The position numbers were made by a program, and so were the translations under genes. Of a DNA stretch of 42,084 nt, positions 1 to 42,084 are shown in pieces (within the stretch, counting starts at the first letter, position 1; each line of letters begins with the position of its first letter). This DNA comes from a virus. Location of the stretch: IMG/VR virus record IMGVR_UViG_3300006802_000187, positions 1 through 42,084 of that record, one strand, 5' to 3'. The notes beneath the pieces were generated by a model. It saw only the letters and a list, made by a program, of their open reading frames with translations, made no database searches and was not told where the DNA came from.

Positions 1-123
1 CCCGATTTTAATATGCCTAAACCCCAACTCAAATAATCTCTCAGCATATTTGAAAGAATAAACTGAGGTCATTGGAATTAGCCCATGCTCTCTGCACAAC
101 TCCACAAAAACCCTGTGCTGATC
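1..123. repeat. Left copy of 123-bp terminal direct repeat
   Basis: These bases are identical to 41962-42084 at the other end of the window. The NeuB-like reading frame continues without interruption from one copy into the other. An exact repeat of this modest length is what an assembler leaves at the overlap of a circular contig, so I read it as an assembly closure. The non-redundant genome is about 41,961 bp. A real short terminal repeat on linear virion DNA cannot be excluded from sequence alone. Confidence 0.93.
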
Positions 124-297
124 CCAATCCAATTCATAATCAGCGACCCGGTCTTTTTCATAAGACCAATTACAATCTGCAGCAAAATGAGTTTGGATCT
201 TTGCAATCGTCACCCCGCAATCCGCAGACTGTTTAACCATTTCTTTTAATAAACGAGTTTTGCCTTGATGGTTATGAGAGAATTCAGCGATAATCAT
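1..297 (-). CDS. neuB: NeuB-like sialic/nonulosonic acid synthase, N-terminal part (continues across the junction)
   Basis: ATG at 297-295 overlaps the TGA of the upstream Maf gene as ATGA. The N-terminus begins MIIAEFSHNHQGKT, the family's AE-x-NH-x-G strand, followed by AKIQTH where NeuB proteins usually have KFQT. The frame runs to base 1 and resumes at 41961 on the circle. The complete protein would be 269 residues; usual NeuB proteins are about 340-350. The enzyme condenses an N-acetylated hexosamine (ManNAc type) with phosphoenolpyruvate to form a nine-carbon nonulosonic acid in the cytoplasm. It is the last gene of the carbohydrate operon. Confidence 0.85.
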   Translation of the reverse strand, partial: MIIAEFSHNHQGKTRLLKEMVKQSADCGVTIAKIQTHFAADCNWSYEKDRVADYELDWDQHRVFVELCREHGLIPMTSVYSFKYAERLFELGFRHIKIG

Positions 298-2138
298 TTC
301 AATTCCTCATCTAGTCTTTCTAAAAGAAGACCCGAATAATAGTCGTGAATCCTATAAAGAGAAATATGCTGAGCAATGTATTTCTTCATTCTCTCATGAT
401 CCATAGGCTCCAGATTCTTAAGCGCATTACACTTGTTCATCGTTTGGAACACATCTAATTGAGAAAGATCCATAATGGTTTTTGAAAACCAATCCTTATT
501 CCAGTACTTATCTTTAATCGCATCAATCTCTTTTGAGGGTAGGGAGTAAATCTTAGATAATGTCCCCATTAAAGTATGCACACCTTTGAAAAACTCCTCC
601 CCCCATGGGTAAGACAGCATTTGCATGGAAAGCTTTTCTTCTTCTCTTTTAGTTGTGATTTGGGCATCGGAGACAATCTTAAAGCACTTCTCTAAGTCTT
701 TTCTGAATGTTTTTAGCTCCCCTCTGAGCATTTCCATTTGTCTCTTAAAACCCTCTGCCTTAGCGGGAGCGGGGAGTTTCTTATAATGCTCAATCCTCTC
801 TCCAGGGTCTTCATTTGACGTAGCATTCAAATCACTCCACGGGGTCGCTTGGGTTCCAATAATCTGCGCACCCTTCATTGACGTGTTGTAAACAGTGAAG
901 TTATGCCCCTTCTCCCTCCATTTATGAATGGAGGACTGGTACTCCTGTAAACATCTATTCCACACAGGAATAGTAGTTACAGGCTCACCACTGTTACCCA
1001 TAATCTTAGTCCACTGGGGTTTGGACTTCTCAACGTTGAACTCTACTTCTGTTCCCTTCGTATGCGACTGACCGTCAATAAAACAAAGGTCCACACCTGT
1101 TAGAACAACCTTTGAACACCCAAACAAAAACGCCAACTCCATTGCAGCGTTTGCAGAAGACACCCCACCGTTCACTTCTCCTGGTTCATACTGAGAGAAA
1201 TGACAGACACCATTCCCTCTAAACATCATGAAAGACTCAGGGAATAACTCGAAATACTCCCTGGGGCACCAGGGATAAGCGGCGTAGTAAATCCCATCTA
1301 AATCCTTTTTCTCAATGCCGTGGAAGATGGTTGTCACCTTCCTCTCACATCTCGTCACCAAATGAGGACGAATATCATGCGCCAGGAGTTTCTTTAACGC
1401 CGCGTCACAAGCAATAAGAAGTGAGCCCTTGGTTTTTCCTTCTTTATAGGCGTGGATGAAATCATCCATCGAAGGACCCGCTCCAATCACAATCGCTGGT
1501 ACGTCCTTGAACTTGTCAAAAAGAGATTTAATCTCGTAACTCTCTTGCAAAGATTGTCTATTGTTAAACAACTGTTCCCATCTGAAATGAGAATCACTCG
1601 CACATCCCATCGAGATGAACACTTGCTTAGCAGACTGAATCACAACATGAGTGATTCTTTCTGCCTCTGGGTGCTGCCTTCCTTCTACTGGAGGATAGGC
1701 AAATGGATCCACCACAATCTCTGGATTTTGTGAGTGCATAGCAGCATGACCAAATTCATCGATCTTGGTCATGATTTGATACAAATGAGGACCCATCTCC
1801 TCTGGTGGAATTCCAATTAAAACATCAACATCATGAGCCTGTAGAGTGTCTTTAATGTATTCCCGTTTAATCAAAGCATGGAATCTCTCTAAAGAAGGCT
1901 CAATAATCACTACTCGTGAGATTTGCTTCCCGCTTTTACGACACTGATTTAAAACGTTTAGCGTTGAAAACCCAACAATTACTAGATAATCAGGGTTCTT
2001 CAGACCGTGGACTTTTAATTCTGGGTCCACCTCAGCCGGAGTCTCTTTGTGCTTCATGAGTAAATCAATTAACGGTTTACCCAGCGCCTCTAGATTAGCC
2101 CTGTAAATTCCCTCAAAGGGTTTAAGTGTTTTTTTCAT
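294..2138 (-). CDS. Maf-type motility accessory factor glycosyltransferase (DUF115)
   Basis: A 614-residue protein with the DUF115/Maf architecture. An N-terminal Rossmann-like part (residues about 50-115, LVIVGFSTLN then VVIIEPSLERF) precedes the central DUF115 domain with its signature VIGAGPSMDD at about 217-226 and LIACDAALKKLL and RPHLVTRCER downstream. The C-terminal 150 residues are helical and charged. In flagellated bacteria Maf enzymes transfer CMP-activated pseudaminic, legionaminic or related acids to flagellin Ser/Thr. Here the gene sits between UDP-glucose dehydrogenase and neuB with 4-bp overlaps, so the donor is probably made by the same operon. The acceptor protein is unknown. 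Confidence 0.87.
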   Translation of the reverse strand: MKKTLKPFEGIYRANLEALGKPLIDLLMKHKETPAEVDPELKVHGLKNPDYLVIVGFSTLNVLNQCRKSGKQISRVVIIEPSLERFHALIKREYIKDTLQAHDVDVLIGIPPEEMGPHLYQIMTKIDEFGHAAMHSQNPEIVVDPFAYPPVEGRQHPEAERITHVVIQSAKQVFISMGCASDSHFRWEQLFNNRQSLQESYEIKSLFDKFKDVPAIVIGAGPSMDDFIHAYKEGKTKGSLLIACDAALKKLLAHDIRPHLVTRCERKVTTIFHGIEKKDLDGIYYAAYPWCPREYFELFPESFMMFRGNGVCHFSQYEPGEVNGGVSSANAAMELAFLFGCSKVVLTGVDLCFIDGQSHTKGTEVEFNVEKSKPQWTKIMGNSGEPVTTIPVWNRCLQEYQSSIHKWREKGHNFTVYNTSMKGAQIIGTQATPWSDLNATSNEDPGERIEHYKKLPAPAKAEGFKRQMEMLRGELKTFRKDLEKCFKIVSDAQITTKREEEKLSMQMLSYPWGEEFFKGVHTLMGTLSKIYSLPSKEIDAIKDKYWNKDWFSKTIMDLSQLDVFQTMNKCNALKNLEPMDHERMKKYIAQHISLYRIHDYYSGLLLERLDEELK

Positions 2139-2836
2139 CGTCTTCTCGCGTTTTCTTGCTGTGTGTGAACTAAACTGTTTGGAATGTCCTGCTCATTCAA
2201 ATAGGTAATAAATGCATCCAAGTCCTTTGGTAAACACTTACCTCCATATCCCTTTTTCCCATCGGGACCTGGAACAAAGGTGTGTTCTGCGTTAATGAAA
2301 TTCGTCAACGTCACCCCGCACCTAACATCCTCGTAATCAATATGAAGCTTTTCACATAGCTCATAAATCATATTGAAATAATTTACCTTTACTGCCCCAA
2401 AGCAATTGTGCGCGTACTTCATCACCTCGCACCCGGTATTAGTGGTGAAGTAAATTCTGTTTTCATCAAATATCTTTTTACCAACTTCGTTATATCCCAT
2501 GACAACAGGAAGGCGTTCCATGTCGCGATCAGCCTTTCTTTGGGTTAAAAACTCTGGACATGAAATCACTCCCAACGAATCCGCCGTACCAGGGAGAACC
2601 GTGGATCTCAGGAACGTGGGGACTTTGGGAAGCTTGTTCAATGCCCCCTCTACATGAGATAAATCCTGCCTTCCCCTTACCGTGGGAACTGGCACACAAA
2701 TAAACGCAGCATCAATACCATCTAGACTAGGAGCCTTCCCTTGCGGGGGGTCGTATTCCACAACCTCGTGATTATTTTTAAGGTGTCTTGAAAGCGCTCC
2801 ACCAATAATTCCAACACCCATAATTGCAATTCTCAT
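2135..2836 (-). CDS. Short UDP-glucose/GDP-mannose dehydrogenase family enzyme
   Basis: Residues 7-12 (GVGIIG) form the NAD-binding loop. STVLPGT, CPEFL with E95, the AVKVNYFN helix with K150, and GYGGKCLPKD with C201, K204 and D205 match the catalytic set of nucleotide-sugar 6-dehydrogenases, which oxidise UDP-hexoses to uronic acids with two NAD+. At 233 residues it keeps the NAD-binding and central helical domains but lacks the roughly 150-200-residue C-terminal UDP-binding domain (family length about 390-450). It could act on another substrate, need a partner, or be a relic. It overlaps both neighbours by 4 bp (ATGA). Confidence 0.85.
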   Translation of the reverse strand: MRIAIMGVGIIGGALSRHLKNNHEVVEYDPPQGKAPSLDGIDAAFICVPVPTVRGRQDLSHVEGALNKLPKVPTFLRSTVLPGTADSLGVISCPEFLTQRKADRDMERLPVVMGYNEVGKKIFDENRIYFTTNTGCEVMKYAHNCFGAVKVNYFNMIYELCEKLHIDYEDVRCGVTLTNFINAEHTFVPGPDGKKGYGGKCLPKDLDAFITYLNEQDIPNSLVHTQQENARRR

Positions 2837-4164
2837 TTGAACACAATCTCCTTGTCCGTAACTTTGTCGAATATTCTTTTGTTCTTAAGAGTGATTTTAA
2901 TTGGTGGAATAAGCTTTGTATTATCTGTCTTTCTCAGCTTATGCTTACGATATCGTTTCATCTGGAAATGATCGCCCCTGTAATCCACCCACAATGGATA
3001 ACTTAACGATGGTTTTCTGGATAACTGCAATGCGTCTATTTGAGAGGCAATATTAAATCCCGCTTGCCCCGCTCCATAGAGAAACGATCTCTTGAATGCC
3101 TTTTTATTCATCTGAATCTTCATGGCTTCAATGATTTCGTTGTGCTCGTAATCAGCGTCATACACATTCCATGAACGCTCTCTTAGTCCTTGTCTGTCCC
3201 CGATATTCACAGCAGGGACACCCAAGTAAGATGCCTCTCTAAAAATACAAGATGTGTTACCCACAATAACAGAGCACCGATTCAAGGATCGTAAGAAATC
3301 AGTAGGAGATAAGTTGGGTGCCTTTTTCATTACTGGATCAAACCTTTTTAAGGCATTGTCCAATAACTCTATAATCTCTGTTCTGCCTGGGTCTGGATTT
3401 GGCATATACCACTGCACGGTACAAGAATAAGTCAGACAAAACTCCATAACTGCTTTAATTACAATTTCTGTCTGATGATAGGCGTCCTCAACATTATCTG
3501 TTTCTGGATGAAAAATACAAATAATCTCTGATCTCTTGTAAGACGCCTTACCCTTTCTTTGAATCCCTATATCTTTAATAATATCCAACGAAGGACACCC
3601 AAAGTGAAACACCCTTGAGTCATCCTCACCCATTGCAATTAAGTATTGTTTGGCCAATCGAGTACAACAAAAGTGATAATCAGATAGCTTTGTAACTGCA
3701 TGTCTGACTCTGTCGTCAATGTTATTTGTAACTTCTCCACCCTGAATGTGAGCCAATGGAATATTCAAGTACGCCGCCGCAGTTGCCATGGGTAGCGTTT
3801 CAAATCTATCGGCAATGGCAATGACCAAATCAGGCCGCTCTTTAGTGAAAAACTCTGAAAATCTAGATGTGATTTCGCCCGCTGTACGACTCATCCCATC
3901 TAGTGATGGTTTGTAATTTAGCTCAATATTTTCAACTCTGATGCGATCACTATTGGCCTTGATGTATTCTGCTGATGCATCAAACTCTTTCCATAAAAGA
4001 GAATTAGAGACAACTAATACAACCTCATATTGTTGCCTTAATGATAACTCCCTCACCACCGATCCACATCTGGCTAGAGTGGCTCTATTAAATATTGGGA
4101 TGATGATTTTTTTAGGAGTAATGGTTCGACCCATCTTAGTCGATAATCTAGTATTGTTGTCCAT
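2833..4164 (-). CDS. neuC: NeuC-like hydrolysing UDP-N-acetylglucosamine 2-epimerase
   Basis: The GT-B fold enzyme family converts UDP-GlcNAc (or a derivative) to UDP and a ManNAc-type sugar, the first committed step of sialic acid synthesis. Diagnostic pieces are DRFETLPMA, HIQGGEVTNNIDDRVRHAVT followed by KLSDYHF, AMGEDDSRVFHFGCPSLD, and the C-domain IVGNTSCIFREASYLGVPA and NIGDRQGLRE. The protein is 443 residues against about 370-390 usually; the last 60 or so residues are a basic extension unlike the family. Start is either 4164 (overlapping neuA by 17 bp) or the internal Met at 4134. LegG-type epimerases acting on modified UDP-GlcNAc belong to the same family, so the exact product is uncertain. 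Confidence 0.9.
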   Translation of the reverse strand: MDNNTRLSTKMGRTITPKKIIIPIFNRATLARCGSVVRELSLRQQYEVVLVVSNSLLWKEFDASAEYIKANSDRIRVENIELNYKPSLDGMSRTAGEITSRFSEFFTKERPDLVIAIADRFETLPMATAAAYLNIPLAHIQGGEVTNNIDDRVRHAVTKLSDYHFCCTRLAKQYLIAMGEDDSRVFHFGCPSLDIIKDIGIQRKGKASYKRSEIICIFHPETDNVEDAYHQTEIVIKAVMEFCLTYSCTVQWYMPNPDPGRTEIIELLDNALKRFDPVMKKAPNLSPTDFLRSLNRCSVIVGNTSCIFREASYLGVPAVNIGDRQGLRERSWNVYDADYEHNEIIEAMKIQMNKKAFKRSFLYGAGQAGFNIASQIDALQLSRKPSLSYPLWVDYRGDHFQMKRYRKHKLRKTDNTKLIPPIKITLKNKRIFDKVTDKEIVFK

Positions 4165-4807
4165 ACATGGCTCTGGCTAAAAGCAAGTCTCGCTTGCAGT
4201 CTATGTTTACTGATTGATCTTCACTCATAATGTACGGAGTGCATGGCTTCATGTGAAACTCTCTTCTTTTCAAGAATTCACCAGCCTTCACGATATAAAA
4301 ACAACCATTCCTAATATAGATAGGTTTTAAGTCCTGTTTGTTTTGAAAATTTGTAAACCTTAACGGAAACAGATGATTGTTTTTAATCGTATAAGTTCTG
4401 TTTGGATGATTTGCACCAATATCAGTCACAGAAATAAGAGAGTCCGGCTTGTCTCTTTCTAGAATTTCTTTAATCTCATATGCGTTTGACTTGGTTCTAA
4501 AAGGTGATGTGGGTTGGAGTAACCATATGTATTGACCATCGTTTACATGATATGATTTGATTACATCCAACACCACATCGGACATCAAGGCTTCATCAGT
4601 GCACAACTCAGGTGGGCGAACCCTTTTATGTACCCCCAACTCCTCATCTAAAAGAGTAGGAATGTCTGTGCTTAAAATAACCTTTTCAAAAAATAACGAT
4701 TTTGCATACTCAATCGCGTGGTCCACCAACCTCTTCTTACCTAGAATTTGAAGATTCTTGTTGATAATGGACTTAGAGCCATCCCTAGCCGGTATAATTG
4801 CAATCAT
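4148..4807 (-). CDS. neuA: NeuA-like CMP-N-acetylneuraminate (nonulosonate) cytidylyltransferase
   Basis: A 219-residue protein with the N-terminal nucleotide-binding signature IIPARDGSKSIINKNL (residues 4-19; family IIPARGGSK-x-I-x-x-KN), VILSTD, LLQPTSPFRT and an RNGCFYI strand near the C-terminus. These are hallmarks of CMP-sialate and related synthetases, which activate the nine-carbon acid with CTP. Gly to Asp in PARDGS is a small departure from consensus. ATG overlaps the methyltransferase stop by 4 bp, and its own 3' end overlaps neuC, indicating translational coupling. It could activate Neu5Ac, legionaminic or pseudaminic acid; sequence inspection cannot separate these. Confidence 0.9.
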   Translation of the reverse strand: MIAIIPARDGSKSIINKNLQILGKKRLVDHAIEYAKSLFFEKVILSTDIPTLLDEELGVHKRVRPPELCTDEALMSDVVLDVIKSYHVNDGQYIWLLQPTSPFRTKSNAYEIKEILERDKPDSLISVTDIGANHPNRTYTIKNNHLFPLRFTNFQNKQDLKPIYIRNGCFYIVKAGEFLKRREFHMKPCTPYIMSEDQSVNIDCKRDLLLARAMYGQQY

Positions 4808-5679
4808 GATGCGATAGTAATAACTTTGTATCCTCTTTTATCGTCTAGGATTTTCTTTTCATGTGATGCAATCTCCTCTAAATCCCTCTCAATAAATACA
4901 GAGTGATCATAAGGATCATGACCCATTTGTTTTTTTAGAATAGGATAAATCTCTGGTTCAATACTCCACGACTCAGTATGTTTGAACTCATTCACCCGGA
5001 GTATCTTTTTTAATGAATCCTCATCAAAATACCAAAGATGCTGCGGACAAAAGGTAAAACACTCTTCTTTCAGTTCTTCCACAACAAGAGACTTCATATT
5101 AGGAACACAAATCACAACATAAGAAGCCATTCCTCTAATTCTAGACAATAATTCGCGTGGATCAGGAACGTGCTCCAATACTCCCCAAAGACATACAGCA
5201 TCAAATCTTTGCCGGTTAGAGTAAAAAAACTGTCCAAATGGAAGCTCTGCTACTGGAATATTATTATTTCTACATGCTTGTGCAGCGTTTTTGTTGGGCT
5301 CAACACCCAACACTTTCATTCCATGACAATGCTTTAGAAATACCCCATTTCCACAGCCAATATCTAAAACACTGCGAACATTTTTATCCTTCAGTCTCTT
5401 AATCGCAGGCCCAAACTTATAAAGCTGGTCCTGTTCTTCTTTCAATTCACTCCACTGGCGCATTGCATCTGATTCTTTGTAAAACTCCATCAGAGCCTTA
5501 GGAGTGGGAGGAGTCTTATTGTATACAGTTCCACACCCACCGCACCGCACCACTGTCATTTTGTTTTTTGTGAATAAAAGATGAGAATCTCTTTCCGAAC
5601 ACCAACAATTTACTTCATGGGTAGGGCGAGAATCAAAGAAGTCTTTGACACTACTTTCGTAGGTTCTGTATTTGTTCAT
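4804..5679 (-). CDS. SAM-dependent methyltransferase with N-terminal zinc-ribbon
   Basis: Taken from the ATG at 5679 the protein is 291 residues; a TTG at 5715 would add 12 residues, and neither start has a clear ribosome site. An N-terminal Cys cluster (CWC at about 25-27, CGGCG at about 46-50) resembles the zinc-ribbon of sugar C-methyltransferases. The class I fold follows: VLDIGCGNG (about 104-112), VLGVEPN, FDAVCLWGVLEHVPDP and VVICVPN. Methylation of a nucleotide sugar or of the finished glycan fits its place as first gene of the minus-strand carbohydrate operon, but the substrate is an inference. The 5' region abuts the divergent dehydrogenase gene. Confidence 0.82.
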   Translation of the reverse strand: MNKYRTYESSVKDFFDSRPTHEVNCWCSERDSHLLFTKNKMTVVRCGGCGTVYNKTPPTPKALMEFYKESDAMRQWSELKEEQDQLYKFGPAIKRLKDKNVRSVLDIGCGNGVFLKHCHGMKVLGVEPNKNAAQACRNNNIPVAELPFGQFFYSNRQRFDAVCLWGVLEHVPDPRELLSRIRGMASYVVICVPNMKSLVVEELKEECFTFCPQHLWYFDEDSLKKILRVNEFKHTESWSIEPEIYPILKKQMGHDPYDHSVFIERDLEEIASHEKKILDDKRGYKVITIAS

Positions 5680-5706: not shown

Positions 5707-6531
5707 ATGAGTCAACTAGTTAATTTAGCGCGACCCACCCCAGGAGATAAAGACTTCTATACACGTTGGAATGAAATTGGACCCGTAGGTGAGAGATCCA
5801 TTGATACCAAGATCCTTATTGTAGACCACAGATGCAGAGTGACAGACGATCTCCTAGAGGGACTTCCTAATCTTAAATGTATTGTCTCTGCTAATACCGC
5901 ACACACTCACTTGAAGTTTTCACGTAAGAAATTTCCAATTAAAATCATTAGTCTCAAAAATGACATAGGATGCCCCATTCGCACCTCTGTTGCTGAGCAC
6001 GTCTTTAACCTTATTTTTAGACTCGTTCGCCCATTGGACACCTACGGCACAAGATTACATGGGAAATCCATTACTGTTGTTGGGCCTGGGAAAATTGGTC
6101 GCCAAGTCATTGATATCGCCGCTGCATTTGGAATGACTGTGATTATTGCTGATGAAAACTCAAAGTTAGAAAATTCTTGGGATACAGATTTTATTACATT
6201 CCACACTCCCGAAAAAGTGAGAGTGGGTACAAAAGAAGTCCTAGAGCGCTTCTCAGGTTATGTCATTAATACCTCTAGGCCTTCTTGTATCGATGAAGTT
6301 GCATTGTCGAAACTACTTAGGTCAGGTCAAATCAAGGGGGCTGCTCTTGATGTTGTTGGAACACCTAGTTTGTTTTGGGGATTAAATGTTGTGATATCAG
6401 ACCATATTGGTGGATCAACCCTAGAAGATAGAATTCTAACCGATGAGTATATGGTGCGTAAGACTAAGGCTTATCTCCAAGAGCAAAATATCGAATTGAC
6501 ACCGCAGCCGTCGTCACATCTGAGAAGTTAG
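5707..6531 (+). CDS. D-isomer-specific 2-hydroxyacid dehydrogenase-like protein
   Basis: A 274-residue protein with the Rossmann motif VVGPGKIGRQV (G126, G128, G131), VINTSRPSCIDEVAL carrying the expected active-site Arg (R191), ALDVVGTP and SDHIGGST with the catalytic His (H233). The family Glu expected in ALDVF-x-x-EP is absent, so the Arg/Glu/His triad is incomplete. It is the only plus-strand gene in this quarter of the genome. It starts about 28 bp from the methyltransferase ATG in divergent orientation and its 3' end overlaps the convergent 129-residue virion gene by 68 bp. A role in making or modifying the operon's sugar or its pyruvate-derived donor is possible but unproven. Confidence 0.8.
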   Translation: MSQLVNLARPTPGDKDFYTRWNEIGPVGERSIDTKILIVDHRCRVTDDLLEGLPNLKCIVSANTAHTHLKFSRKKFPIKIISLKNDIGCPIRTSVAEHVFNLIFRLVRPLDTYGTRLHGKSITVVGPGKIGRQVIDIAAAFGMTVIIADENSKLENSWDTDFITFHTPEKVRVGTKEVLERFSGYVINTSRPSCIDEVALSKLLRSGQIKGAALDVVGTPSLFWGLNVVISDHIGGSTLEDRILTDEYMVRKTKAYLQEQNIELTPQPSSHLRS

Positions 6532-6853
6532 CCGTTCCTGAAATTGTTCTTAATGTAACCGTAATCGACGATACGCCGAGTGAGGTCACATGCGCTGTAA
6601 TTTCACTGGAAAGCGCCTCTGCTTTAGCAAAGTAAATATTTCTATAAGATTCTGAGAGGTTCACCGTGAGCGCGACCGTAGGAGACCCGGTAGCTGATCC
6701 GGTTGTTGAGCCGGTTAGAATATAGGGGTATGTGACAGCAGCGGAATTGTGTAACGAGTGCTCCACTTTTTTTGTATAAATGTCCTGCAAAGCTCTCTCT
6801 AGCTGTGGGGCCTCTTCATTTAGTCTAGGAGAATAAACCTTCTTACGGGGCAC
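6464..6853 (-). CDS. Small Ser/Thr-rich virion-block protein
   Basis: 129 residues, last gene of the structural block, overlapping the ejection-type gene by 11 bp. The N-terminus is basic (MPRKKVYSPR) and the remainder is a beta-rich Ser/Thr/Gly stretch (LTGSTTGSATGSPTVALTVN). No family was recognised. Position and composition suggest a minor virion component. Its Ser/Thr content makes it one conceivable acceptor for the Maf glycosyltransferase, which is speculation. Confidence 0.72.
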   Translation of the reverse strand: MPRKKVYSPRLNEEAPQLERALQDIYTKKVEHSLHNSAAVTYPYILTGSTTGSATGSPTVALTVNLSESYRNIYFAKAEALSSEITAHVTSLGVSSITVTLRTISGTANFSDVTTAAVSIRYFALGDKP

Positions 6854-17300: not shown

Positions 17301-18572
17301 TTACAGATCAGTCTTGATATCCCGAATCATTACAGCCAATTTCGGGTTCGCATCAAGTCCGATGTTTTTGTAACAACGCATGTATGCTTCGTAGCTATCT
17401 TGGTTAGAAACCCTAGATAGAATCGATCCATCATCGTCCGCCCACTCAAGATCAAGAAGCGTATACATTTTGAGCGCCATCTTATTAAAGATCAGCAACG
17501 AGTTAAATGGTGCGAGTCTATCGCGTTCAATTGCTACACCGTTGTATGACAGTCCTGAATGACCACCATCAAATTTAGGAGCCGGACCATTTGTTACATA
17601 ACGTCGATCTCCTGAAACGGAATCCAAGAAAGCACGAACAACTTCATGGTGACCCATGATCATGTCAGCTTCTTTACCCGTATCGGTGTGAATTTTATCG
17701 AAGGCAACCTGCATCAAATTGCCATCGATAATTCGCTCCGTTTGAGAGTTTCCAAGAATCGTTGCGTTCCATGCCGCAACAGTCTGACGGTTGACGTTTT
17801 GGATAGTGGTGCCAGCAAAGGCGTTTGAGCCCCAAATGTTTGATTCCGTGAAAACGTCAATCAAACCTTGAATGCCCATCATTTCTACACCAGATCCACC
17901 AGCGCCTCGGTTGAATACGAAAGTATCCGATTGAGACACAGTAACAGTTGAATCTGAAATGGTCAGAGTATCAACCGTGGTAGCTGGGTTACTTGAAAGC
18001 GCAACACTCACAACTGCCTGAGACGATGCTTGTGCAGTAGGTGATGCTACTGTGCCCAAATCAATCGACTGCCCAGCAGTCAAATAACGACCACCAGGCT
18101 GGCCTGGCTTTTGGAAGCGATTGAAAAGGCTGATTGCTGATGCTGAAGCGCCATCTGCACCCACCTGTGCAATTCGTCCATCCCCAACACCCCAGGTTTG
18201 ACGACCCAAGTCAACAGTGAGGTCATCTACCAACCCTTGCATTTCAGCTTGAGCCGCACCTACGAATGCGTTCTTACCAGCGGCGATAACCTGCCCGGTA
18301 AACTGAACACGTCCGTATTGGTACGTGGCTGAAATACGAACTTCACTGTAGGCTTGGTTACCTGCGGTTGGAAGCGTTCCACTTTCTCCACGAGCACCTA
18401 CACCCGAGTTACGTTGAGTATGAAGAGGGAACCGAACGTGACGACCTGCCCATTCCCGGTCAGATTCATCCAAGACCCGAAACATCTGGACTTGGTTGTT
18501 GACGGTTTCTCGCACCGCCCCTTCATAGAATTCTTTCAAAACTGCATCAAAATTACTTAGCGTCTGTGCCAT
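17301..18572 (-). CDS. Major capsid protein
   Basis: 423 residues following the scaffold gene. The N-terminal arm (LSNFDAVLKEFYEGAVRETV), an extended loop (GRHVRFPLHTQRNSGVGARG), a long helix with LVDDLTVDLGRQTWGVGDGR, and the C-terminal A-domain strands (ADMIMGHHEVVRAFLDSVSG, IERDRLAPFNSLLIFNK, MYTLLDLEWADDDG) match HK97-fold major capsid proteins of podoviruses. It would be the most abundant virion protein. Immediate neighbours (scaffold before, decoration after) support the call. Confidence 0.87.
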   Translation of the reverse strand: MAQTLSNFDAVLKEFYEGAVRETVNNQVQMFRVLDESDREWAGRHVRFPLHTQRNSGVGARGESGTLPTAGNQAYSEVRISATYQYGRVQFTGQVIAAGKNAFVGAAQAEMQGLVDDLTVDLGRQTWGVGDGRIAQVGADGASASAISLFNRFQKPGQPGGRYLTAGQSIDLGTVASPTAQASSQAVVSVALSSNPATTVDTLTISDSTVTVSQSDTFVFNRGAGGSGVEMMGIQGLIDVFTESNIWGSNAFAGTTIQNVNRQTVAAWNATILGNSQTERIIDGNLMQVAFDKIHTDTGKEADMIMGHHEVVRAFLDSVSGDRRYVTNGPAPKFDGGHSGLSYNGVAIERDRLAPFNSLLIFNKMALKMYTLLDLEWADDDGSILSRVSNQDSYEAYMRCYKNIGLDANPKLAVMIRDIKTDL

Positions 18573-30698: not shown

Positions 30699-30931
30699 TT
30701 TATGTCGCGGACGATCTTAAAAGTTTTTGTGAGAAATGGGGCCTTGAACTCTTCGACCCAGCGAATTGCTCGGTCTGCCAGAAACCACGTGAACTCAACC
30801 GGCCCTTCCTCACCAAGAAAATGGCGGGAGTCATGATAACCCAGTGCTGCAAGTTCGAGCGCGTGATGGTAGTGGTGAGCCGGACCGGCGGCTTGCCAGA
30901 ACCTTTTGAGGATATTCCGATATGCGACTAA
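30695..30931 (+). CDS. Small Cys-containing protein
   Basis: 78 residues from GTG at 30695, overlapping the previous stop as GTGA; longer in-frame starts exist at 30647 and 30656. Cys residues (NCSVCQKP, TQCCKFE) could bind zinc. Nothing further is recognisable. Confidence 0.55.
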   Translation: MIYVADDLKSFCEKWGLELFDPANCSVCQKPRELNRPFLTKKMAGVMITQCCKFERVMVVVSRTGGLPEPFEDIPICD

Positions 30932-30946
30932 CAGAGGAGAAGTCAG

Positions 30947-31453
30947 GTGAGCAGGATTAAGAGAATACGTGAGGCAAACGAACGTAAGAAATATGTTGAA
31001 CGTTGCGCCGATGATTCCGCTAGTTGGCAGAGTCAGATGACTAAAGACACCGATTTCCTCCTGGCCGAGATCGACCGCTTAACGGCAGTTGATCGGGAAA
31101 GGCCAGATGTTTACAAAATGGCGTTTGAGCAAATGGCAAGCGATGTTCTTTGTGCTCTATCTGGTTTGGGTCACTCTACGCCCGAAGAAGGGTACGTCAA
31201 TTCGCCATGGCTTGTTAAGGGCGATATTGAGCGGGCTTTGCGCTCAACAGATTCCCCATCAGTTGATCGAAAAACCGTTCAAGAGGCAATTGACAAACTG
31301 AATGACCTTGGACACTCAAATCTTGAGAGTGATTCTGAATTTAACCACAATTTCGGTGCTGGTATTTTGTGGGCCGCATCTCATTTTAGAGTTCGTGTTT
31401 TGGGTAAGAGAGAAACAGATTCGAAGTCAGTTCATCAGAAGGAGAAGGAATGA
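30947..31453 (+). CDS. Hypothetical helical protein
   Basis: 168 residues, GTG start after AGAGGAGAAG. N-terminal helix with SASWQSQMTKDTDFLLAEID is a common phage phrase (D-x-x-x-L-L-x-x-I-D-R-L); the middle carries SPSVDRKTVQEAIDKLNDLG. The AACAGATTCC element occurs inside it (31246) and again at its end. No function assigned. Confidence 0.62.
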   Translation: MSRIKRIREANERKKYVERCADDSASWQSQMTKDTDFLLAEIDRLTAVDRERPDVYKMAFEQMASDVLCALSGLGHSTPEEGYVNSPWLVKGDIERALRSTDSPSVDRKTVQEAIDKLNDLGHSNLESDSEFNHNFGAGILWAASHFRVRVLGKRETDSKSVHQKEKE

Positions 31454-31776
31454 ATCTAGCAATATTATTTACAGCCCATTGGCTTGGTGACTTCGTTCTA
31501 CAGACCGATGCAATGGCTCAAGGAAAAAGCAAATCAAATGCGTGGCTTACAAAGCACGTTTTAACCTACGGCGCTCTCATGACCGTGGTAGGCATTCTAA
31601 TCGGTCATCCATGGATTGGTTCGATCAACGCCACGGCCCATTGGGTGACTGACTATTTCACGTCCAGGTGGACCTCGAAACTCTATCAGGCTGGAAAGCG
31701 GCATGATTTTTTTGTAGTGATTGGCCTAGATCAACTTCTACACGCGCTTGTGTTGATTTGGTCTTTGAGTGTGTAA
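31450..31776 (+). CDS. DUF3307 membrane protein
   Basis: 108 residues with the DUF3307 signature HWLGDFVLQTDAMAQGKSKS (residues 10-29), WLTKHVLTYGALM and a C-terminal HDFFVVIGLDQLLHALVLIW helix. Three to four membrane segments. The family occurs in phages and bacteria, function unknown. ATG overlaps the previous stop (ATGA) with GAAGGAGAAGG upstream. Confidence 0.8.
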   Translation: MNLAILFTAHWLGDFVLQTDAMAQGKSKSNAWLTKHVLTYGALMTVVGILIGHPWIGSINATAHWVTDYFTSRWTSKLYQAGKRHDFFVVIGLDQLLHALVLIWSLSV

Positions 31777-31811
31777 CAGATCTGCAACCTGTATCCAGAA
31801 AGAGGTAGGTA

Positions 31812-32135
31812 ATGGAATTCAACGAAGGTGACCACGTCATCATAAAGCTGGAATTACAGGGCATCAAAGCTCAAGTTAAAAAGGCAATCATGTCTCAGGC
31901 TGAGGGGCTTGCCGCCATGGTGGACCAGGAAGTAGAGAGAATGTGTCAACCCAATGTGATCCAGTCTTTAATGAGGGACGAGATCAAAAAGTGTATCGAG
32001 CATTCTCTTGCATATGGAGACGCTCACAGATTAATCAGAGAGCAGGCCGAGGCCGCTGCCAGCGAAGCTGTAAGGAAAAGTTTTGGATTATCCCGCAAAA
32101 CAGATCCCAAATCACTTGAGCAGGAGAAGAAATGA
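31812..32135 (+). CDS. Hypothetical helical protein
   Basis: 107 residues, Ala/Glu/Lys-rich helices (EGLAAMVDQEVERMCQPNVI, REQAEAAASEAVRKSFGL). AGAGGTAGGTA lies upstream. The C-terminal KTDPKSLEQEKK is the translated form of the repeated boundary element that supplies the next gene's ribosome site. Confidence 0.6.
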   Translation: MEFNEGDHVIIKLELQGIKAQVKKAIMSQAEGLAAMVDQEVERMCQPNVIQSLMRDEIKKCIEHSLAYGDAHRLIREQAEAAASEAVRKSFGLSRKTDPKSLEQEKK

Positions 32136-32602
32136 GGCTAGCTCGTGATGTAAACAAGAAAGACTTTTCCCGCAAAGACATCGCCAGACTGAAAGCGAAA
32201 ATCGCGATCAGGCAAAGCGGATGTTGGGAGTACGTTGGCTCTGTCGACAAGATCGATGGATATGGCAATTTTTATATTAACGGTCGTAAATTCCGGACAC
32301 ACCGAGTGATGTTTGCGTATTACAAGCGCGACATTCCGGCCAAAAAGATCATATGCCACAAGTGTGACAACAGGCGTTGCTGCAATCCCGATCACTTATT
32401 TATTGGGACGTCGAATGACAACTATCTTGATGCCCTTAAGAAAGGGAGAATAAAGATCAAATTGAAAAGTAAAAAAGCGTGGGCGGTTCGACGCATTGTA
32501 GCCGTCGCCAGAGAGATTTCTGAAAAGAAATTGCGTGGTTCTATTTATGACGACTTACGGGCGGCAATAGTTGAGTACGATCGTTACACAGGGAATATAT
32601 GA
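32132..32602 (+). CDS. HNH endonuclease (HNH_3-like, homing type)
   Basis: 156 residues. CWEYVGSVDKIDGYGNFYIN (31-50), RTHRVMFAYY with H57, and IICHKCDNRRCCNPDHLFIG (73-92) form the classical HNH_3 fold with zinc and catalytic residues; DNYLDALKKGR follows as usual. The C-terminal third looks like a DNA-recognition helix region. Such nucleases are often free-standing homing endonucleases in phages. Unlike the two HNH genes near 26 and 27.5 kb, this one is intact. Confidence 0.88.
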   Translation: MRLARDVNKKDFSRKDIARLKAKIAIRQSGCWEYVGSVDKIDGYGNFYINGRKFRTHRVMFAYYKRDIPAKKIICHKCDNRRCCNPDHLFIGTSNDNYLDALKKGRIKIKLKSKKAWAVRRIVAVAREISEKKLRGSIYDDLRAAIVEYDRYTGNI

Positions 32603-32652
32603 TTATGAAACGTACGCGTGATTCCGAAACTGTGGGGCAGGAAAAGTTATGA
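32599..32652 (+). CDS. Possible 17-codon micro-ORF between HNH and next gene
   Basis: ATGA overlaps couple it at both ends: its ATG overlaps the HNH stop and its TGA overlaps the ATG-ATG at 32649-32654. It encodes MIMKRTRDSETVGQEKL, whose last codons carry the next ribosome site (CAGGAAAAG). It may serve mainly as a translational bridge. Confidence 0.35.
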   Translation: MIMKRTRDSETVGQEKL

Positions 32653-32792
32653 TGGGGGTATGTCAGCCCAGAACTATGGATTCAAGTTCGCATTGGGAAG
32701 GTGACAGACCGGCGCCGGTTCCTCGTTCGACTCGGGGTGCCCTCTCCAAACGTACGACAGGCGTCAATACAGTTAAGCGAGGTGAGGGGTGA
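32649..32792 (+). CDS. Small hypothetical protein
   Basis: 47 residues, ATG after CAGGAAAAGTT. It ends TVKRGEG, exactly the same last codons as the 113-residue protein at 33609-33950, because both end in the same ribosome-site module. The middle is basic and Pro-rich. Part of it mimics a tRNA 3' half (see rejected items). Coding status moderate. Confidence 0.45.
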   Translation: MMGVCQPRTMDSSSHWEGDRPAPVPRSTRGALSKRTTGVNTVKRGEG

Positions 32793-33616
32793 ACCATATT
32801 GACCTACTTTTGGATTTAGAACGCCATGTACGGGATTACGATAAAATAGTCTGGCGCGAACCAAATTTGAGTGGCTGGGGCGGGAAGGGAGGTCTCGGGA
32901 GCCCGGACCTTTTGGCGGTGAAAAAATCCTACTCGCGTCCCGATTGGCACGTTTATGAGGTAAAAGCCACGCAAAGCGACTTACTCTCTGATCTCAGGAA
33001 AAATAAATTTGAACGCTATTACCCGCTGTGTGAGCGTTTGACATTTGCCGTGCACCATTCAGTGGACTGGAGGAAACACCTAACTCCAGTCCCCGGCGTC
33101 GGGATCATGGTGTTCACCGAAAAAGGCAGATGGCATACGAAGCGCGCAGCTCGCAAGCACGGGGGGCCGTATCCCGACATTGATGGCGTTGCAATGTCTC
33201 TCATGTTCGGTCGCATGTCCGAGAACGCCAGGGACGCAAACGGACCGAGACTGAGCCGGTTAGAAGCCGAGAGAGCGCGTCTTGCAAAAAGGGACATCGA
33301 TAGCTTGTGGTGTGCCGCTAATAAGTTTATTTCCGAAAAAGCGCGAGACATTCGAGCCAAGGATGCTGAAGTCGAATTTAAACTCAACAAACTGGAGCGA
33401 CTACAGGAAAATACAAACAAACTAGCGAAAGAGAAGGCGCTTCGTGACATTCAAAAACTGCTGGGGCTTGAGCATCGATGGCGGATTCTGGAACCAAAAG
33501 ATGCGCTCGAAGAGGTAATCAACGAAACACTTGGAGCTAAGTTCAAGGAAATACGAGAAAAGGTAAAAACCGCAATGCGCCTAACAGCCAACAACTCTGG
33601 AGGACGGGATGAGTGA
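32789..33616 (+). CDS. MmcB/VRR-like PD-(D/E)xK nuclease-type protein
   Basis: 275 residues from GTG at 32789 (GTGA overlap). The N-terminal 110 residues read LGSPDLLAV (D40), HVYEVKATQSDLLSDLRKNK (E57, K59, D69) and YYPLCERLTFAV, the pattern of MmcB-family DNA repair proteins with a restriction-nuclease-like core. The C-terminal 130 residues are a charged coiled coil. It may act in DNA processing or degradation of host DNA; this is inferred from the family. Confidence 0.72.
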   Translation: MNHIDLLLDLERHVRDYDKIVWREPNLSGWGGKGGLGSPDLLAVKKSYSRPDWHVYEVKATQSDLLSDLRKNKFERYYPLCERLTFAVHHSVDWRKHLTPVPGVGIMVFTEKGRWHTKRAARKHGGPYPDIDGVAMSLMFGRMSENARDANGPRLSRLEAERARLAKRDIDSLWCAANKFISEKARDIRAKDAEVEFKLNKLERLQENTNKLAKEKALRDIQKLLGLEHRWRILEPKDALEEVINETLGAKFKEIREKVKTAMRLTANNSGGRDE

Positions 33617-33950
33617 AACGATGTACTTAGTTTATGACCCATTAGATGGTGATCACCAAGAGTGTAAAACGCTCAAGGAAGCTCAAGAAAAAGCCAAAGA
33701 ACTTATCGAGAGTTACATTGAATGTTGTGATGGCTGGCCTCAGGAAATGGAATCGGACGGTGTAAAAATATACCTGCTCCTAGAACAGTCTGAAAAGTAC
33801 GACGTAAAGAAGCGCGAGGACTACGATCCAGATGATTGGATCAACATCGGTGCAGATCCAGAATGGTCTGAAATGTGCAGTTATCAGATGGAGCCAGTCA
33901 GCAAGAATCGCACAACAGACGTTAAAACTGTTAAGCGAGGTGAGGGGTGA
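33609..33950 (+). CDS. Hypothetical acidic protein
   Basis: 113 residues; ATG preceded by GGAGGACGGG. Starts with beta strands (MYLVYDPLDGDHQECKTLKE) then a helix and an acidic Trp-containing C-terminal part. Terminates in TVKRGEG, the repeated module. No family recognised. Confidence 0.6.
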   Translation: MSETMYLVYDPLDGDHQECKTLKEAQEKAKELIESYIECCDGWPQEMESDGVKIYLLLEQSEKYDVKKREDYDPDDWINIGADPEWSEMCSYQMEPVSKNRTTDVKTVKRGEG

Positions 33951-34129
33951 GATTTAAAGAAGCGATTGTTCAATGCAAATTCTGCAAGCGGGACATTCAC
34001 CTAAAAAAGATATGGGGGAAGGTCTTTGGGGAGTTCTGTATCCAAGGTAAATGCAAATGCGGAGCCGACATATCTTTCGGAGTCGAGTTCGACGTCATGG
34101 GTCGTCCGCCAGAAAAGCGTAAAAAATGA
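33947..34129 (+). CDS. Small zinc-ribbon protein
   Basis: 60 residues, GTG start overlapping the previous stop. CKFCKRD and CKCGAD give a four-Cys site in a beta-rich fold. GAGGTGAGGG in the preceding gene is the ribosome site. Confidence 0.58.
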   Translation: MRFKEAIVQCKFCKRDIHLKKIWGKVFGEFCIQGKCKCGADISFGVEFDVMGRPPEKRKK

Positions 34130-34422
34130 CCGATCAGGACCGCATCAACACAAAAATACTAGGACTTCTTCAGTGGGCGACTCAACATCTCAAACCTATG
34201 AAGAATGTCCGCGAGTCTATTCAATATAAAGACATTATGCGGGTATTGGCGGTATTTCCTGATGATATGACAGCAATGATGTCTGGAACTAAGGCCCGCG
34301 AGGCCCTAATTGCGGACATCGAAAAATGCATGGACATGAACTCAGATAACGAGTCGGCGTACCGATGGATTCATGACCGACTAACAGACCACAAATCAGG
34401 AGTACGGGAAAATGACAGTTAA
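34126..34422 (+). CDS. Hypothetical helical protein
   Basis: 98 residues, ATGA overlap with the previous gene. Helical with KILGLLQWATQHLKPMKNVR and a C-terminal LTDHKSGVRENDS, the latter translated from the AACAGACC element at 34383 that also carries the next ribosome site. Unknown function. Confidence 0.6.
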   Translation: MTDQDRINTKILGLLQWATQHLKPMKNVRESIQYKDIMRVLAVFPDDMTAMMSGTKAREALIADIEKCMDMNSDNESAYRWIHDRLTDHKSGVRENDS

Positions 34423-34726
34423 AGCATGGATAAAAAAGAGAAAAATCAGAGCTTTATTTGAGGCCGAGATTTCCGACTGGGATTTAGAATTTTGGAATGA
34501 AAAACGCATAGCCGAAAATCTTCGCATAGAAGCTGAGATCGTCGCACAAAAAAAACTACGTTCATATATTGAAGTTGAAATGAACCGCGGAGAGATTGAA
34601 GCTGCAGCAAAAACCGCTCTGTATGAAATCTTAGAGGATGCTGAGTTTAAGACCGGGCTCAAGCAAGCGGTTCGAGATTCGATTAAGAACAAATTCATGA
34701 ACTATTTGGACAACCTGGGTAGATAG
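34412..34726 (+). CDS. Hypothetical charged helical protein
   Basis: 104 residues, ATG 7 bases after GGAGTACGGGA. Long charged helices (FEAEISDWDLEFWNEKRIAE, FKTGLKQAVRDSIKNKFM). It ends one base into the GTG that could start the HTH gene. Function unknown. Confidence 0.6.
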   Translation: MTVKAWIKKRKIRALFEAEISDWDLEFWNEKRIAENLRIEAEIVAQKKLRSYIEVEMNRGEIEAAAKTALYEILEDAEFKTGLKQAVRDSIKNKFMNYLDNLGR

Positions 34727-34758
34727 TGAGTAACAGACCTGAAGTCAGGAGTACGGGA

Positions 34759-34938
34759 ATGATTGGCGAATTGCTCAGGCTATATAGAAATGTCCACAAC
34801 ATCGGTGTAAGAGAGTTCTCGAAGCGTATTGGTGTATCAGCCGCGACCATTAGCCGAATAGAACGAGGCAAGCCAATGAATCATTACACTATGCTCAAAT
34901 TAATCATGTGGTTGTTTAATAAACGGGCAACAGGCTAA
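34759..34938 (+). CDS. Cro/C1-type helix-turn-helix regulator
   Basis: 59 residues from the ATG placed right after the GGAGTACGGGA ribosome module (a GTG at 34726 would add 11 residues). LLRLYRNVHNIGVREFSKRI then GVSAATISRIERGKPMN is a textbook XRE HTH. Only the DNA-binding domain is present. It may regulate early genes; the tandem palindromes at 35617-35661 are possible targets, without evidence. Confidence 0.78.
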   Translation: MIGELLRLYRNVHNIGVREFSKRIGVSAATISRIERGKPMNHYTMLKLIMWLFNKRATG

Positions 34939-38579: not shown

Positions 38580-38829
38580 CTTAATACTAATTCTGTTTAT
38601 AGCGACAGGATGTGGGACTGCAAAAGTGGATGAATGGGATCGTGATGATCACATCGCTATGGAAAACTATCGCAGGGATATCCACGAATGCCGATTGACC
38701 CTACATGAAATGGGATACAAGGAGCTATCCCGGACCATGGTGGACGACTGTTTAGGATACAAAGGCTATAGAGATGAGTTTTTGACTCCTAGACTCTACA
38801 CGGGAGCGCGTGGTGATAAAAAAAATTAG
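38572..38829 (+). CDS. Small lipoprotein
   Basis: 85 residues from ATG at 38572 (alternative ATG at 38563). MRNLILILFIATGC is a short signal peptide ending in a lipobox with Cys14. The mature part is charged and contains two further Cys (HECRLTL, DDCLGY). An envelope location with a role such as superinfection exclusion is possible. It overlaps the next lipoprotein gene by 20 bp. Confidence 0.65.
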   Translation: MRNLILILFIATGCGTAKVDEWDRDDHIAMENYRRDIHECRLTLHEMGYKELSRTMVDDCLGYKGYRDEFLTPRLYTGARGDKKN

Positions 38830-40960: not shown

Positions 40961-41093
40961 AACGTCTCCTTATTTTTTTGTCTGCCGAATGAAAACTATC
41001 CAACAAATACAATATAAAAACAACAACTACCCAGACCCAACCGGGATCAGATACGGCTTTATACAATTCAACTCCCCCCCCTGGATCCAACAT
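40896..41093 (-). CDS. Holin candidate (single span)
   Basis: 65 residues: short N-terminus, one strong transmembrane helix (GWVWVVVVFILYLL, about 18-31), then a highly charged tail (KKIRRRYATKKEESSKEE). This topology is like small class II/III phage holins, and it overlaps the amidase gene by 67 bp, where a holin is expected. The ATG lies within the amidase. Could instead be another small membrane protein. Confidence 0.55.
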   Translation of the reverse strand: MLDPGGGVELYKAVSDPGWVWVVVVFILYLLDSFHSADKKIRRRYATKKEESSKEESSETQKGHA

Positions 41094-41470
41094 AACAACC
41101 TCTTCATATTAATTATGGGACACGTTTTGTTAGGGTCAAATTCATAGTGTCCATAGATCTCCCAATTAGGAATGTCATAGGAGTATTGAATCGATTGAAT
41201 GAAATAAGACAAAGCTAGAAATTGTCTAAAGTAGTATTTGCCGTTGCCCACTAAACACACACCAATGGAATCGTTGTGCCCCTTAGTATGTGCGCCTTGT
41301 TCATTCAATGCACGACAAAATGGATACTTCACCGTCTCACCATTCGATAAAATCACCGCGTGGTAGCCGATTTTTCTAAATCCTCTTTTTTTATGCCAAT
41401 CCTCTATTTCCTGTGCAGTTGTTCCATGTTTCGACGCGGAGCAATGAATTATGATTCGCTTAGGTTCCAT
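41027..41470 (-). CDS. Endolysin: N-acetylmuramoyl-L-alanine amidase (Amidase_2/T7 lysozyme-like)
   Basis: 147 residues. IIIHCSAS (H9), IGYHAVI (Y36, H37) and GHYEFDPNKTCP (H108, K115, C117) reproduce the zinc ligands and catalytic residues of T7 lysozyme-type amidases, which cut the bond between N-acetylmuramic acid and L-alanine in peptidoglycan. No cell-wall-binding domain and no signal peptide, so it needs a holin. It starts inside the neuB 3' end, so it is probably cotranscribed with the sugar genes. Confidence 0.9.
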   Translation of the reverse strand: MEPKRIIIHCSASKHGTTAQEIEDWHKKRGFRKIGYHAVILSNGETVKYPFCRALNEQGAHTKGHNDSIGVCLVGNGKYYFRQFLALSYFIQSIQYSYDIPNWEIYGHYEFDPNKTCPIINMKRLLCWIQGGELNCIKPYLIPVGSG

Positions 41471-42084
41471 CGGCTCTCGTATTTTTTAATTAAATCCTTT
41501 TCGTCCTGACCCTGAGGATAAGCCCACATCCCCACCTTAGGACACTCGAGTAGTTTCTCCTGAGGAGTAAGCCTATTAAACCTCCCCAACTCCTTTAACT
41601 GGTCCACACACACACTCACAGGCCCGTCCTTCGTCTCTGAGGGCTCAAGTAGGCTGAAGTGTACCTCTATCATCTCCGCAATCATTAGAGAGGCTTTGAG
41701 CGGCTTATCCCAATCTGGATGCAAAGGATTTACATGAGAGGAAAATCCAGTCAACGCATTGGGCCATTTCTTTTTTATTTCCACTATTCTACTCAGGTTA
41801 GATTCATAGGGGCTATGTGGGTATTTAGACACACAATGCAGCACACCCCACTGAGGCATAACCTTAGGCACCTCCCTAATGAGCCGTCCCCCCGTAGAAA
41901 TACAGGTCTTAAACACAGCCGAATATTTTTGAATCAACTCCTGGTCATGAGACTGAGCAGACCCGATTTTAATATGCCTAAACCCCAACTCAAATAATCT
42001 CTCAGCATATTTGAAAGAATAAACTGAGGTCATTGGAATTAGCCCATGCTCTCTGCACAACTCCACAAAAACCCTGTGCTGATC
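41449..42084 (-). CDS. neuB: NeuB-like synthase, C-terminal part (starts at 297 across the junction)
   Basis: This part carries the rest of the TIM barrel: HIKIGSAQ, then CISTGGR at the STGM position, LHCVSKYPHSPYESNL (family LHCTS-YP-P), GFSSH in place of GFSDH, and MIEVHFSL (family E-x-HF), which supply the usual metal and PEP residues. The protein ends soon after the barrel, so the C-terminal antifreeze-like SAF domain of cellular NeuB enzymes is missing. In those enzymes the SAF domain reaches into the partner subunit's active site, so its absence is notable. The 3' end overlaps the amidase gene start by 22 bp, linking sugar synthesis and lysis genes in one transcript. Confidence 0.85.
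   Translation of the reverse strand, partial: DQHRVFVELCREHGLIPMTSVYSFKYAERLFELGFRHIKIGSAQSHDQELIQKYSAVFKTCISTGGRLIREVPKVMPQWGVLHCVSKYPHSPYESNLSRIVEIKKKWPNALTGFSSHVNPLHPDWDKPLKASLMIAEMIEVHFSLLEPSETKDGPVSVCVDQLKELGRFNRLTPQEKLLECPKVGMWAYPQGQDEKDLIKKYESRWNLSES
41962..42084. repeat. Right copy of 123-bp terminal direct repeat
   Basis: Exact duplicate of positions 1-123. It lies inside the NeuB-like gene, which is therefore split by the arbitrary cut point of the circle rather than truncated. Confidence 0.93.

Follow-up and report, generated by a model that had tools for sequence, protein, structure and literature searches.

Why should a small phage carry genes predicted to make a sialic-type sugar, together with an enzyme of the kind that attaches such sugars to flagellin, and what would that enzyme modify? 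The question is raised by IMGVR_UViG_3300006802_000187, a phage record of 42,084 nt whose two ends share an exact direct repeat of 123 bp that closes the record. This whole stretch is called the window below. A preliminary description, made from the sequence, had read an operon at its ends as a nonulosonate pathway (NeuC, NeuB and NeuA) joined to a Maf protein glycosyltransferase, acting late in infection on the phage's own virion proteins or on the host flagellum.

The operon and its surroundings

The window virus is a small tailed phage of the short-tailed type. The operon is surrounded by phage genes, those for the terminase, portal, SU10 adaptor, major head protein and amidase (Table 1), and no tRNA genes are found in the window. 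All the genes of the preliminary description are present. They lie on the strand of the virion genes, in the order methyltransferase, NeuA-like, NeuC, UDP-sugar-dehydrogenase-like, Maf/MptE-like and neuB, with the amidase (endolysin) gene next. The end point given for the operon, 5679, is the ATG of the methyltransferase, and the claim that the operon runs across the contig ends holds as well: 297..1 joined to 41961..41449 gives an intact neuB of 269 codons. Four junctions within the operon are 4-bp overlaps (ATGA), the NeuA and NeuC genes overlap by 17 bp, and neuB overlaps the amidase gene by 22 bp. The operon does sit between the virion and lysis blocks, as described. One gene had been overlooked, that of a D-2-hydroxyacid dehydrogenase. 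It is kept in five relatives, making it part of the conserved module.

Table 1. Features of the window, with coordinates, strand and supporting matches
Feature	Position	Strand	Evidence or remark
Direct terminal repeat, first copy	1-123		100% identical to second copy
neuB, 5' part	1-297	-	Joined ORF over circular junction, 269 aa total; PF03102 2.8e-26
Maf-type (MptE-like/DUF115) candidate protein nonulosonyltransferase, 614 aa, three domains	294-2138	-	PF01973 8e-28
Short UDP-sugar-dehydrogenase-like protein, 233 aa	2135-2836	-	PF00984, PF03721; UDPG_MGDP_dh 4.6e-18
NeuC-like hydrolysing UDP-sugar 2-epimerase, 443 aa	2833-4164	-	TIGR03568; human GNE epimerase 4zht 1e-44
NeuA-like CMP-nonulosonate cytidylyltransferase, 219 aa	4148-4807	-	PF02348; PDB CMP-Neu5Ac synthetase 1eyr 1.1e-21
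SAM methyltransferase, N-terminal Cys-rich segment, 291 aa; first operon gene	4804-5679	-	Methyltransf_23 1.2e-20
D-2-hydroxyacid dehydrogenase family protein, 274 aa, divergent from operon	5707-6531	+	PF02826 1.2e-18
Small Ser/Thr-rich virion protein, predicted H-type-lectin-like beta domain; first candidate acceptor	6464-6853	-	25% Ser/Thr
Major head protein with Ser/Thr-rich patch; second candidate acceptor	17301-18572	-	phrog_14242 3.6e-60
Portal protein (phage context)	19468-21441	-	phrog_156 1.1e-36, P22_portal 2.3e-20
Large terminase (phage context)	21685-23163	-	phrog_38 4.4e-85
Amidase (endolysin)	41027-41470	-	Amidase_2 1.1e-11, phrog_822 3.1e-30
neuB, 3' part	41449-41961	-	Joined ORF; SAF-less nonulosonate synthase; catalytic positions kept
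Direct terminal repeat, second copy	41962-42084		100% identical to first copy

A probable route to an activated nonulosonic acid

Profile searches place the genes in the families expected of them and not in unrelated ones. NeuC exceeds the cut-off of TIGR03568 (NeuC_NnaA, hydrolysing UDP-GlcNAc 2-epimerase) with 268.6 bits against 235.9, as do the proteins of three relatives. NeuA matches CTP_transf_3 (PF02348, 4.2e-15) with 56.6 bits against a cut-off of 22.6, and falls below the cut-off of the pseudaminate cytidylyltransferase equivalog (PseF, TIGR03584; 7.9e-27, 94.3 bits against 205.7). NeuB scores 92.9 bits with PF03102 (cut-off 22.1) and lies below the cut-offs of the synthase equivalogs for N-acetylneuraminate (81.6 against 399.65 bits) and pseudaminate (77.6 against 340.25). 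It is a short form of the enzyme, ending without the C-terminal SAF domain that helps substrate binding in characterised NeuB enzymes. Residues E5, K33, K97, H175 and H200 of NeuB are invariant in four phages.

Judged by these gene identities, NeuC would convert UDP-GlcNAc (or a bacillosamine-type UDP-sugar) to the free 2-epimer, NeuB would condense the 2-epimer with PEP to form a nonulosonic acid, and NeuA would activate the acid to its CMP form. The methyltransferase, which is conserved in five other phages, and the 2-hydroxyacid dehydrogenase, which has lost one catalytic Glu, would probably tailor the sugar.

The UDP-sugar dehydrogenase is another matter. It consists of the N-terminal and central domains and has nothing that matches the third domain, the C-terminal one that binds UDP, and its absence from five of the six phages with the module rules it out as a core step of the pathway; the window phage is the one that has it. 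A short homologue, 42% identical, is found beside NeuC in an alphaproteobacterial MAG. The earlier interpretation is upheld for NeuC-NeuB-NeuA plus a Maf-type transferase, a reading supported by profiles, a full-length fold match and syntenic conservation, and must be amended for this dehydrogenase, which is accessory and truncated.

The putative transferase

The central Maf_flag10/MptE-like domain of the transferase (PF01973) scores 97.8 bits against a cut-off of 34.6 and is present in all five relatives. The predicted structure (pLDDT 79.5) has as its top PDB match in Foldseek the Magnetospirillum Maf flagellin glycosyltransferase 5mu5, over the full length (E 1.2e-16, prob 1.00); the placement of domains in the model is uncertain, since TM to 5mu5 is 0.47-0.48. 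Pfam's current name for PF01973 would make the protein an MptE-like pterin kinase. That identity is rejected, because the fold of the whole protein is that of Maf and MptE-type HPPK matches only at about 1e-3. With the curated flagellin-modification model NCBIfam NF050051 (PseD), the protein scores 60.8 bits, below the cut-off of 670. On the predicted structure, then, the phage transferase is Maf-like in fold and is not a PseD equivalog.

The known Maf flagellin glycosyltransferases (Magnetospirillum 5mu5, Aeromonas Maf1, C. botulinum Maf) have in common with the phage protein the central PF01973 domain, an N-terminal Rossmann-like domain, a C-terminal helical bundle and a linkage to nonulosonate synthesis genes. 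The phage protein differs from them in being encoded by a phage, away from flagellar genes, and in its sequence, which is 13% identical in structural alignment. Maf modifies Ser/Thr in the cytoplasm (PMC4065374), and one Maf accepts CMP-Neu5Ac (PMC11339370). The phage enzyme would likewise transfer the activated sugar to Ser/Thr of an acceptor in the cytoplasm.

Among 85,000 species of bacteria and archaea scanned with a Maf profile, no relative was found within the motif limits of the scan, and a search for relatives among phage isolates gave no Maf match in 50,697 phage records. The single NeuB match in those phage records is a bacterial Moritella capsule contig filed as phage.

Distribution in phages and bacteria

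The module is not confined to the window contig. It occurs in at least five other phage contigs, from distant relatives, at 31-52% identity and with virion genes around it, which excludes chance and rules out an assembly chimera of host DNA. In three other IMG/VR phages the genes follow the same order and are flanked by the same virion genes, with proteins 34-52% identical; two further phages have a rearranged version of the module with GroEL.

Might the operon nonetheless be a decaying host cluster, or a passenger without function in the phage? Its GC content (39-43%) is slightly below that of most virion genes, and the two dehydrogenases, one truncated and the other short of a catalytic residue, could be seen as signs of decay. 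However, the ORFs of the operon are all intact and tightly overlapped, active-site positions are conserved across six phages at 31-52% identity, synteny is held over deep divergence, and the six phage NeuCs form one separate clade in the tree (support 100). Independent syntenic phages largely refute the notion of a relic, which can be considered very improbable.

Bacterial loci, in Flavobacterium and others, link the same four families of enzyme: NeuB, NeuC and NeuA are found there with a hydroxyacid dehydrogenase. Unlike the phage module, these loci are chromosomal and have no Maf. The dehydrogenase occurs next to NeuA in bacterial loci, and bacterial NeuA proteins with such a neighbour are closer to phage NeuA (34-40% in most; Mann-Whitney p 2e-8, a value overstated because the loci come mostly from related Flavobacterium). 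A second phage family has a dehydrogenase-methyltransferase-NeuB-NeuC-NeuA cassette between terminase and portal, partly interrupted by small Ser/Thr-rich proteins. No Maf was found by profile in that family.

The bacterial loci probably serve surface polysaccharide, and both they and the lack of Maf in the second phage family invite the view that CMP-nonulosonate made by the phage goes into the host's lipopolysaccharide, its capsule or some other glycan of the cell surface, to exclude superinfecting phages. O-antigen is altered by phage glycosyltransferases, and genes of this sort occur in pelagimyophages (PMC7029224). However, the operon's transferase has the fold of Maf and not the profile of a lipopolysaccharide sialyltransferase, the window proteins scanned include no flippase, polymerase or further glycosyltransferase, and exclusion of superinfecting phages is less useful late in infection. 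A role in the host's surface glycans is unlikely.

What would be modified?

I propose that late in infection the phage makes CMP-nonulosonic acid and that Maf attaches it to Ser/Thr of one or more of the phage's own virion proteins, and I would give this a somewhat better than even chance of being right. Late expression is suggested by the location of the operon. A virion acceptor is suggested by the same location and by the cassette of the second family, set between terminase and portal.

The substrate of all characterised Maf enzymes, though, is flagellin, and the phage Maf model keeps a C-terminal helical domain resembling flagellin chaperones (PMC11339370). Perhaps flagellin of the host is the target during infection, with the module modifying it or adding to the host's own glycosylation of it, so as to alter motility, for example, or block flagellotropic competitors. 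Against this, late expression beside lysis would leave little time for filaments to be replaced, and no member of the Maf clade turned up in the bacterial genomes scanned, within the motif limits already given. Nor are there flagellar families among the window proteins scanned by profile, and so no link to flagellin or flagellar genes. The related cassette in the second phage family lies inside head genes, which speaks for a target in the virion rather than for host flagellin. On the whole the evidence tilts towards virion proteins of the phage itself, and flagellin seems a distinctly unlikely target. If virion proteins are the target in the second family as well, another transferase is needed there, since that family has no Maf.

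Which virion protein might be the acceptor? One candidate is the small fibre-like protein adjacent to the module, which is conserved in four relatives and whose model (pLDDT 72.6) weakly resembles tail fibres, tailspikes and H-type lectins. Another is the major head protein, where a patch at about residues 179-218 is 42.5% Ser/Thr. The patch is not proof of an acceptor: the comparison is weak, with four sequences against two and the state of the module assigned for only three of the four. For both candidates the Ser/Thr enrichment is weak and the evidence positional.

Implications

The fuller picture is of a short-tailed-type phage lineage that makes its own activated nonulosonic acid, tailored by methyltransferase and dehydrogenase, with a Maf clade found only in phages that O-glycosylates the virion. 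Taken as a whole, it stands at about an even chance. I know of no bacterial virus that puts sialic-type sugars of its own making on its own particles. No description of a phage NeuC-NeuB-NeuA-Maf module was found in the literature searched, which took in few subscription journals.

Genes for NeuB and NeuA, of the same enzyme families as in the phage module, have been counted as reads in viral metagenomes, with a warning of cellular contamination (PMC3877843). Unlike those counts, the present case offers a complete route and a transferase inside the late genes of phages, in several genomes. Virions are also glycosylated in mycobacteriophages, where no phage-made nonulosonic acid is known among the sugars donated and the transferases are not known to include Maf. 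Their capsid and tail proteins are modified by phage-encoded glycosyltransferases (Freeman et al. 2023, as cited in PMC12619734). There glycosylation is reported for virions, whereas in the window phage it is deduced from genes.

If the proposal is true, the synthesis and transfer of an acidic sugar of nine carbons take up about 6 kb of a 42-kb phage genome, a share that implies a strong benefit: possibly escape from defences that recognise surfaces, altered adsorption or stability of the particle. Maf would be a general protein nonulosonyltransferase, separated from flagella, and its operons would be compact, self-contained systems of protein glycosylation, testable in laboratory E. coli. With the cassette of the second family between terminase and portal, the sialylated virion would be a recurrent strategy of phages.

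Layout of the operon

The two ends of the window share an exact 123-bp direct repeat, so the 42,084-base IMG/VR virus record closes to a circle of 41,961 bp, and by its genes this is a true phage genome. The preliminary description claimed an operon with NeuC-, NeuB-, NeuA- and UDP-sugar-dehydrogenase-like genes, Maf and a methyltransferase, set between virion and lysis blocks. It is indeed present: a tight minus-strand operon flanked by virion genes and an amidase. The 4-bp overlaps ascribed to it exist at four junctions (ATGA), but those of NeuA/NeuC and neuB/amidase are 17 and 22 bp.

Elsewhere in the window, repeated 32-nt and 45-nt motifs, which include stretches resembling ribosome-binding sites, lie ahead of several gene starts on the early side, and a protein with a right-handed beta-helix domain behind a signal-like start is possibly secreted or an envelope protein.

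Features of the window (unprefixed positions) and of other contigs
Feature	Location	Strand	Match or remark
Large terminase			phrog_38, 4e-85
Portal			phrog_156; P22_portal 2e-20
SU10-type adaptor			8e-22
Major head protein			phrog_14242, 4e-60
Amidase	after neuB		phrog_822, 3e-30
Small virion protein, 129 aa	6464-6853
2-hydroxyacid dehydrogenase	5707-6531	+	divergent
Methyltransferase	4804-5679	-	first gene of operon
NeuA-like	4148-4807	-
NeuC	2833-4164	-
UDP-sugar-dehydrogenase-like, short	2135-2836	-
Maf-like, 614 aa	294-2138	-	PF01973 8e-28
neuB	297..1 and 41961..41449	-	spans circle junction; amidase follows
Repeated motifs	30926-34759
Beta-helix protein	38810-39373		Beta_helix 2.1e-6
GroEL in operon	L006:5769-7635
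GroEL in operon	L106:3407-4930
MptE/Maf-like, 438 aa	L075:4571-5887
Short UDP-sugar-dehydrogenase-like	L177:9182-9937

A module shared among phages

When 2.9 million viral contigs were scanned with profiles, the operon proved to be present in other phages, in the same order in three and rearranged in two. The three (L004, L005 and L023; IMGVR 3300020045_021065, 3300002460_002708 and 3300012039_000021) have the same gene set, running small virion protein, divergent dehydrogenase, methyltransferase, NeuA, NeuC, Maf, NeuB, with module proteins 34-52% identical to the window's. In L004 and L023 an amidase again lies 3' of neuB, and both share the window's capsid protein (55-59%) and further virion genes. 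The rearranged pair, L006 and L106, have dehydrogenase, GroEL, methyltransferase, NeuA, a divergent NeuB, NeuC and Maf, all on one strand; L006 also has a GroES-like gene. The UDP-sugar dehydrogenase was found in none of these five. A NeuC tree of 117 proteins unites all six phage NeuCs in one group (support 100). The module is a conserved phage unit. It was not found in the stretches examined of L191-L199, which share one virion protein at a greater distance.

L177, L033, L042, L049 and L055 have short UDP-sugar-dehydrogenase-like proteins of 251-286 aa that lack the third domain; such proteins recur next to NeuB/NeuC in viruses and one alphaproteobacterial MAG. One phage-collection entry, FPLJ01000048.1 (L202), is a bacterial sequence from Moritella viscosa that includes a capsule locus and was apparently misfiled.

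The 2-hydroxyacid dehydrogenase, too, is to be reckoned a member of the module. Its start lies 28 bp from that of the methyltransferase; it runs antisense within the late operon, overlapping the 3' end of the small virion gene by 68 bp, and L004, L005 and L023 share this divergent arrangement. A dehydrogenase of this family often comes after NeuB, NeuC and NeuA in bacterial genomes as well, Flavobacterium among them; NeuA is closer to the phage NeuA where the dehydrogenase adjoins, although the loci are related and the p-value overstates the association. All 29 aligned homologues retain the catalytic Arg and His. Glu is gone from the catalytic Glu position in the window's subgroup, probably also in L106, and the reaction may therefore be changed there.

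Identity of the enzymes

Profile searches of each protein support the NeuC-NeuB-NeuA pathway reading. NeuC scores 268.6 bits where the curated family model demands 235.9, and among solved structures the human GNE epimerase domain is closest to it. NeuB and the cytidylyltransferase lie above Pfam cut-offs but below NCBIfam equivalog cut-offs, and so can be assigned to family, not to exact sugar. The window's NeuB is short, lacking the C-terminal SAF domain. It keeps the residues aligned to the catalytic Glu25, Lys53, Lys129 and His215 of the meningococcal enzyme; E5, K33, K97, H175 and H200 are invariant in an alignment of four phages.

Because PF01973 has its Pfam name from MptE, the 614-aa protein was modelled from five phage sequences (mean pLDDT 79.5). 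In Foldseek against the PDB, the predicted fold matched Magnetospirillum Maf (5mu5) best, over its full length (1.2e-16), whereas MptE-type HPPK structures reached only about 1e-3, and that identity was rejected. Together with the PF01973 match, this agrees with the Maf-type enzyme first described. In the model a four-stranded domain at the N terminus is followed by the central domain and, at the C terminus, a helical bundle, with relative domain placement uncertain at TM-scores of 0.47-0.48; a matching three-part architecture is described for Maf (PMC11339370). When the genomes of 84,980 bacterial and archaeal species were scanned with a Maf profile, no relative turned up; the scan requires one of two conserved motifs, and so rules out close relatives only. 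A different MptE/Maf-like protein lies near a full-length NeuB in L075, a 49.9-kb viral contig with the sample code of L005.

A proposed function

By analogy with named pathways, NeuC would yield ManNAc or its legionaminic counterpart, which NeuB would join with PEP to form a nonulosonic acid; NeuA would activate this as the CMP sugar, and Maf would move it onto Ser/Thr of a protein in the cytoplasm, the way Maf treats flagellin ahead of export (PMC4065374). A Maf accepts CMP-Neu5Ac (PMC11339370). From the operon's location on the virion-lysis strand and its overlap with the endolysin gene, I infer late expression.

The acceptor and the purpose of the module I likewise infer. A virion protein is favored over host flagellin, the other suggested acceptor, by a second, unrelated phage family, in which a cassette of dehydrogenase, methyltransferase, short NeuB, NeuC and NeuA repeatedly lies among head genes, between terminase and P22-type portal. 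Both flanks are visible in four contigs (L009, L026, L027, L038), and three partial ones (L007, L008, L051) are compatible; small Ser/Thr-rich proteins break up the cassette in L026 and L038, and a profile search found no Maf in this family. The first candidate acceptor is the window's 129-aa neighbor, 25% Ser/Thr, predicted to form a helix and a beta domain resembling H-type lectins, with weakly scoring matches to tail fibres and tailspikes; the second is the capsid protein, with its Ser/Thr-rich patch.

Maf O-glycosylation, nonulosonate synthesis and mycobacteriophage virion glycosylation were known already. Their union in a conserved late module of phages turned up in none of the phage records or papers searched.
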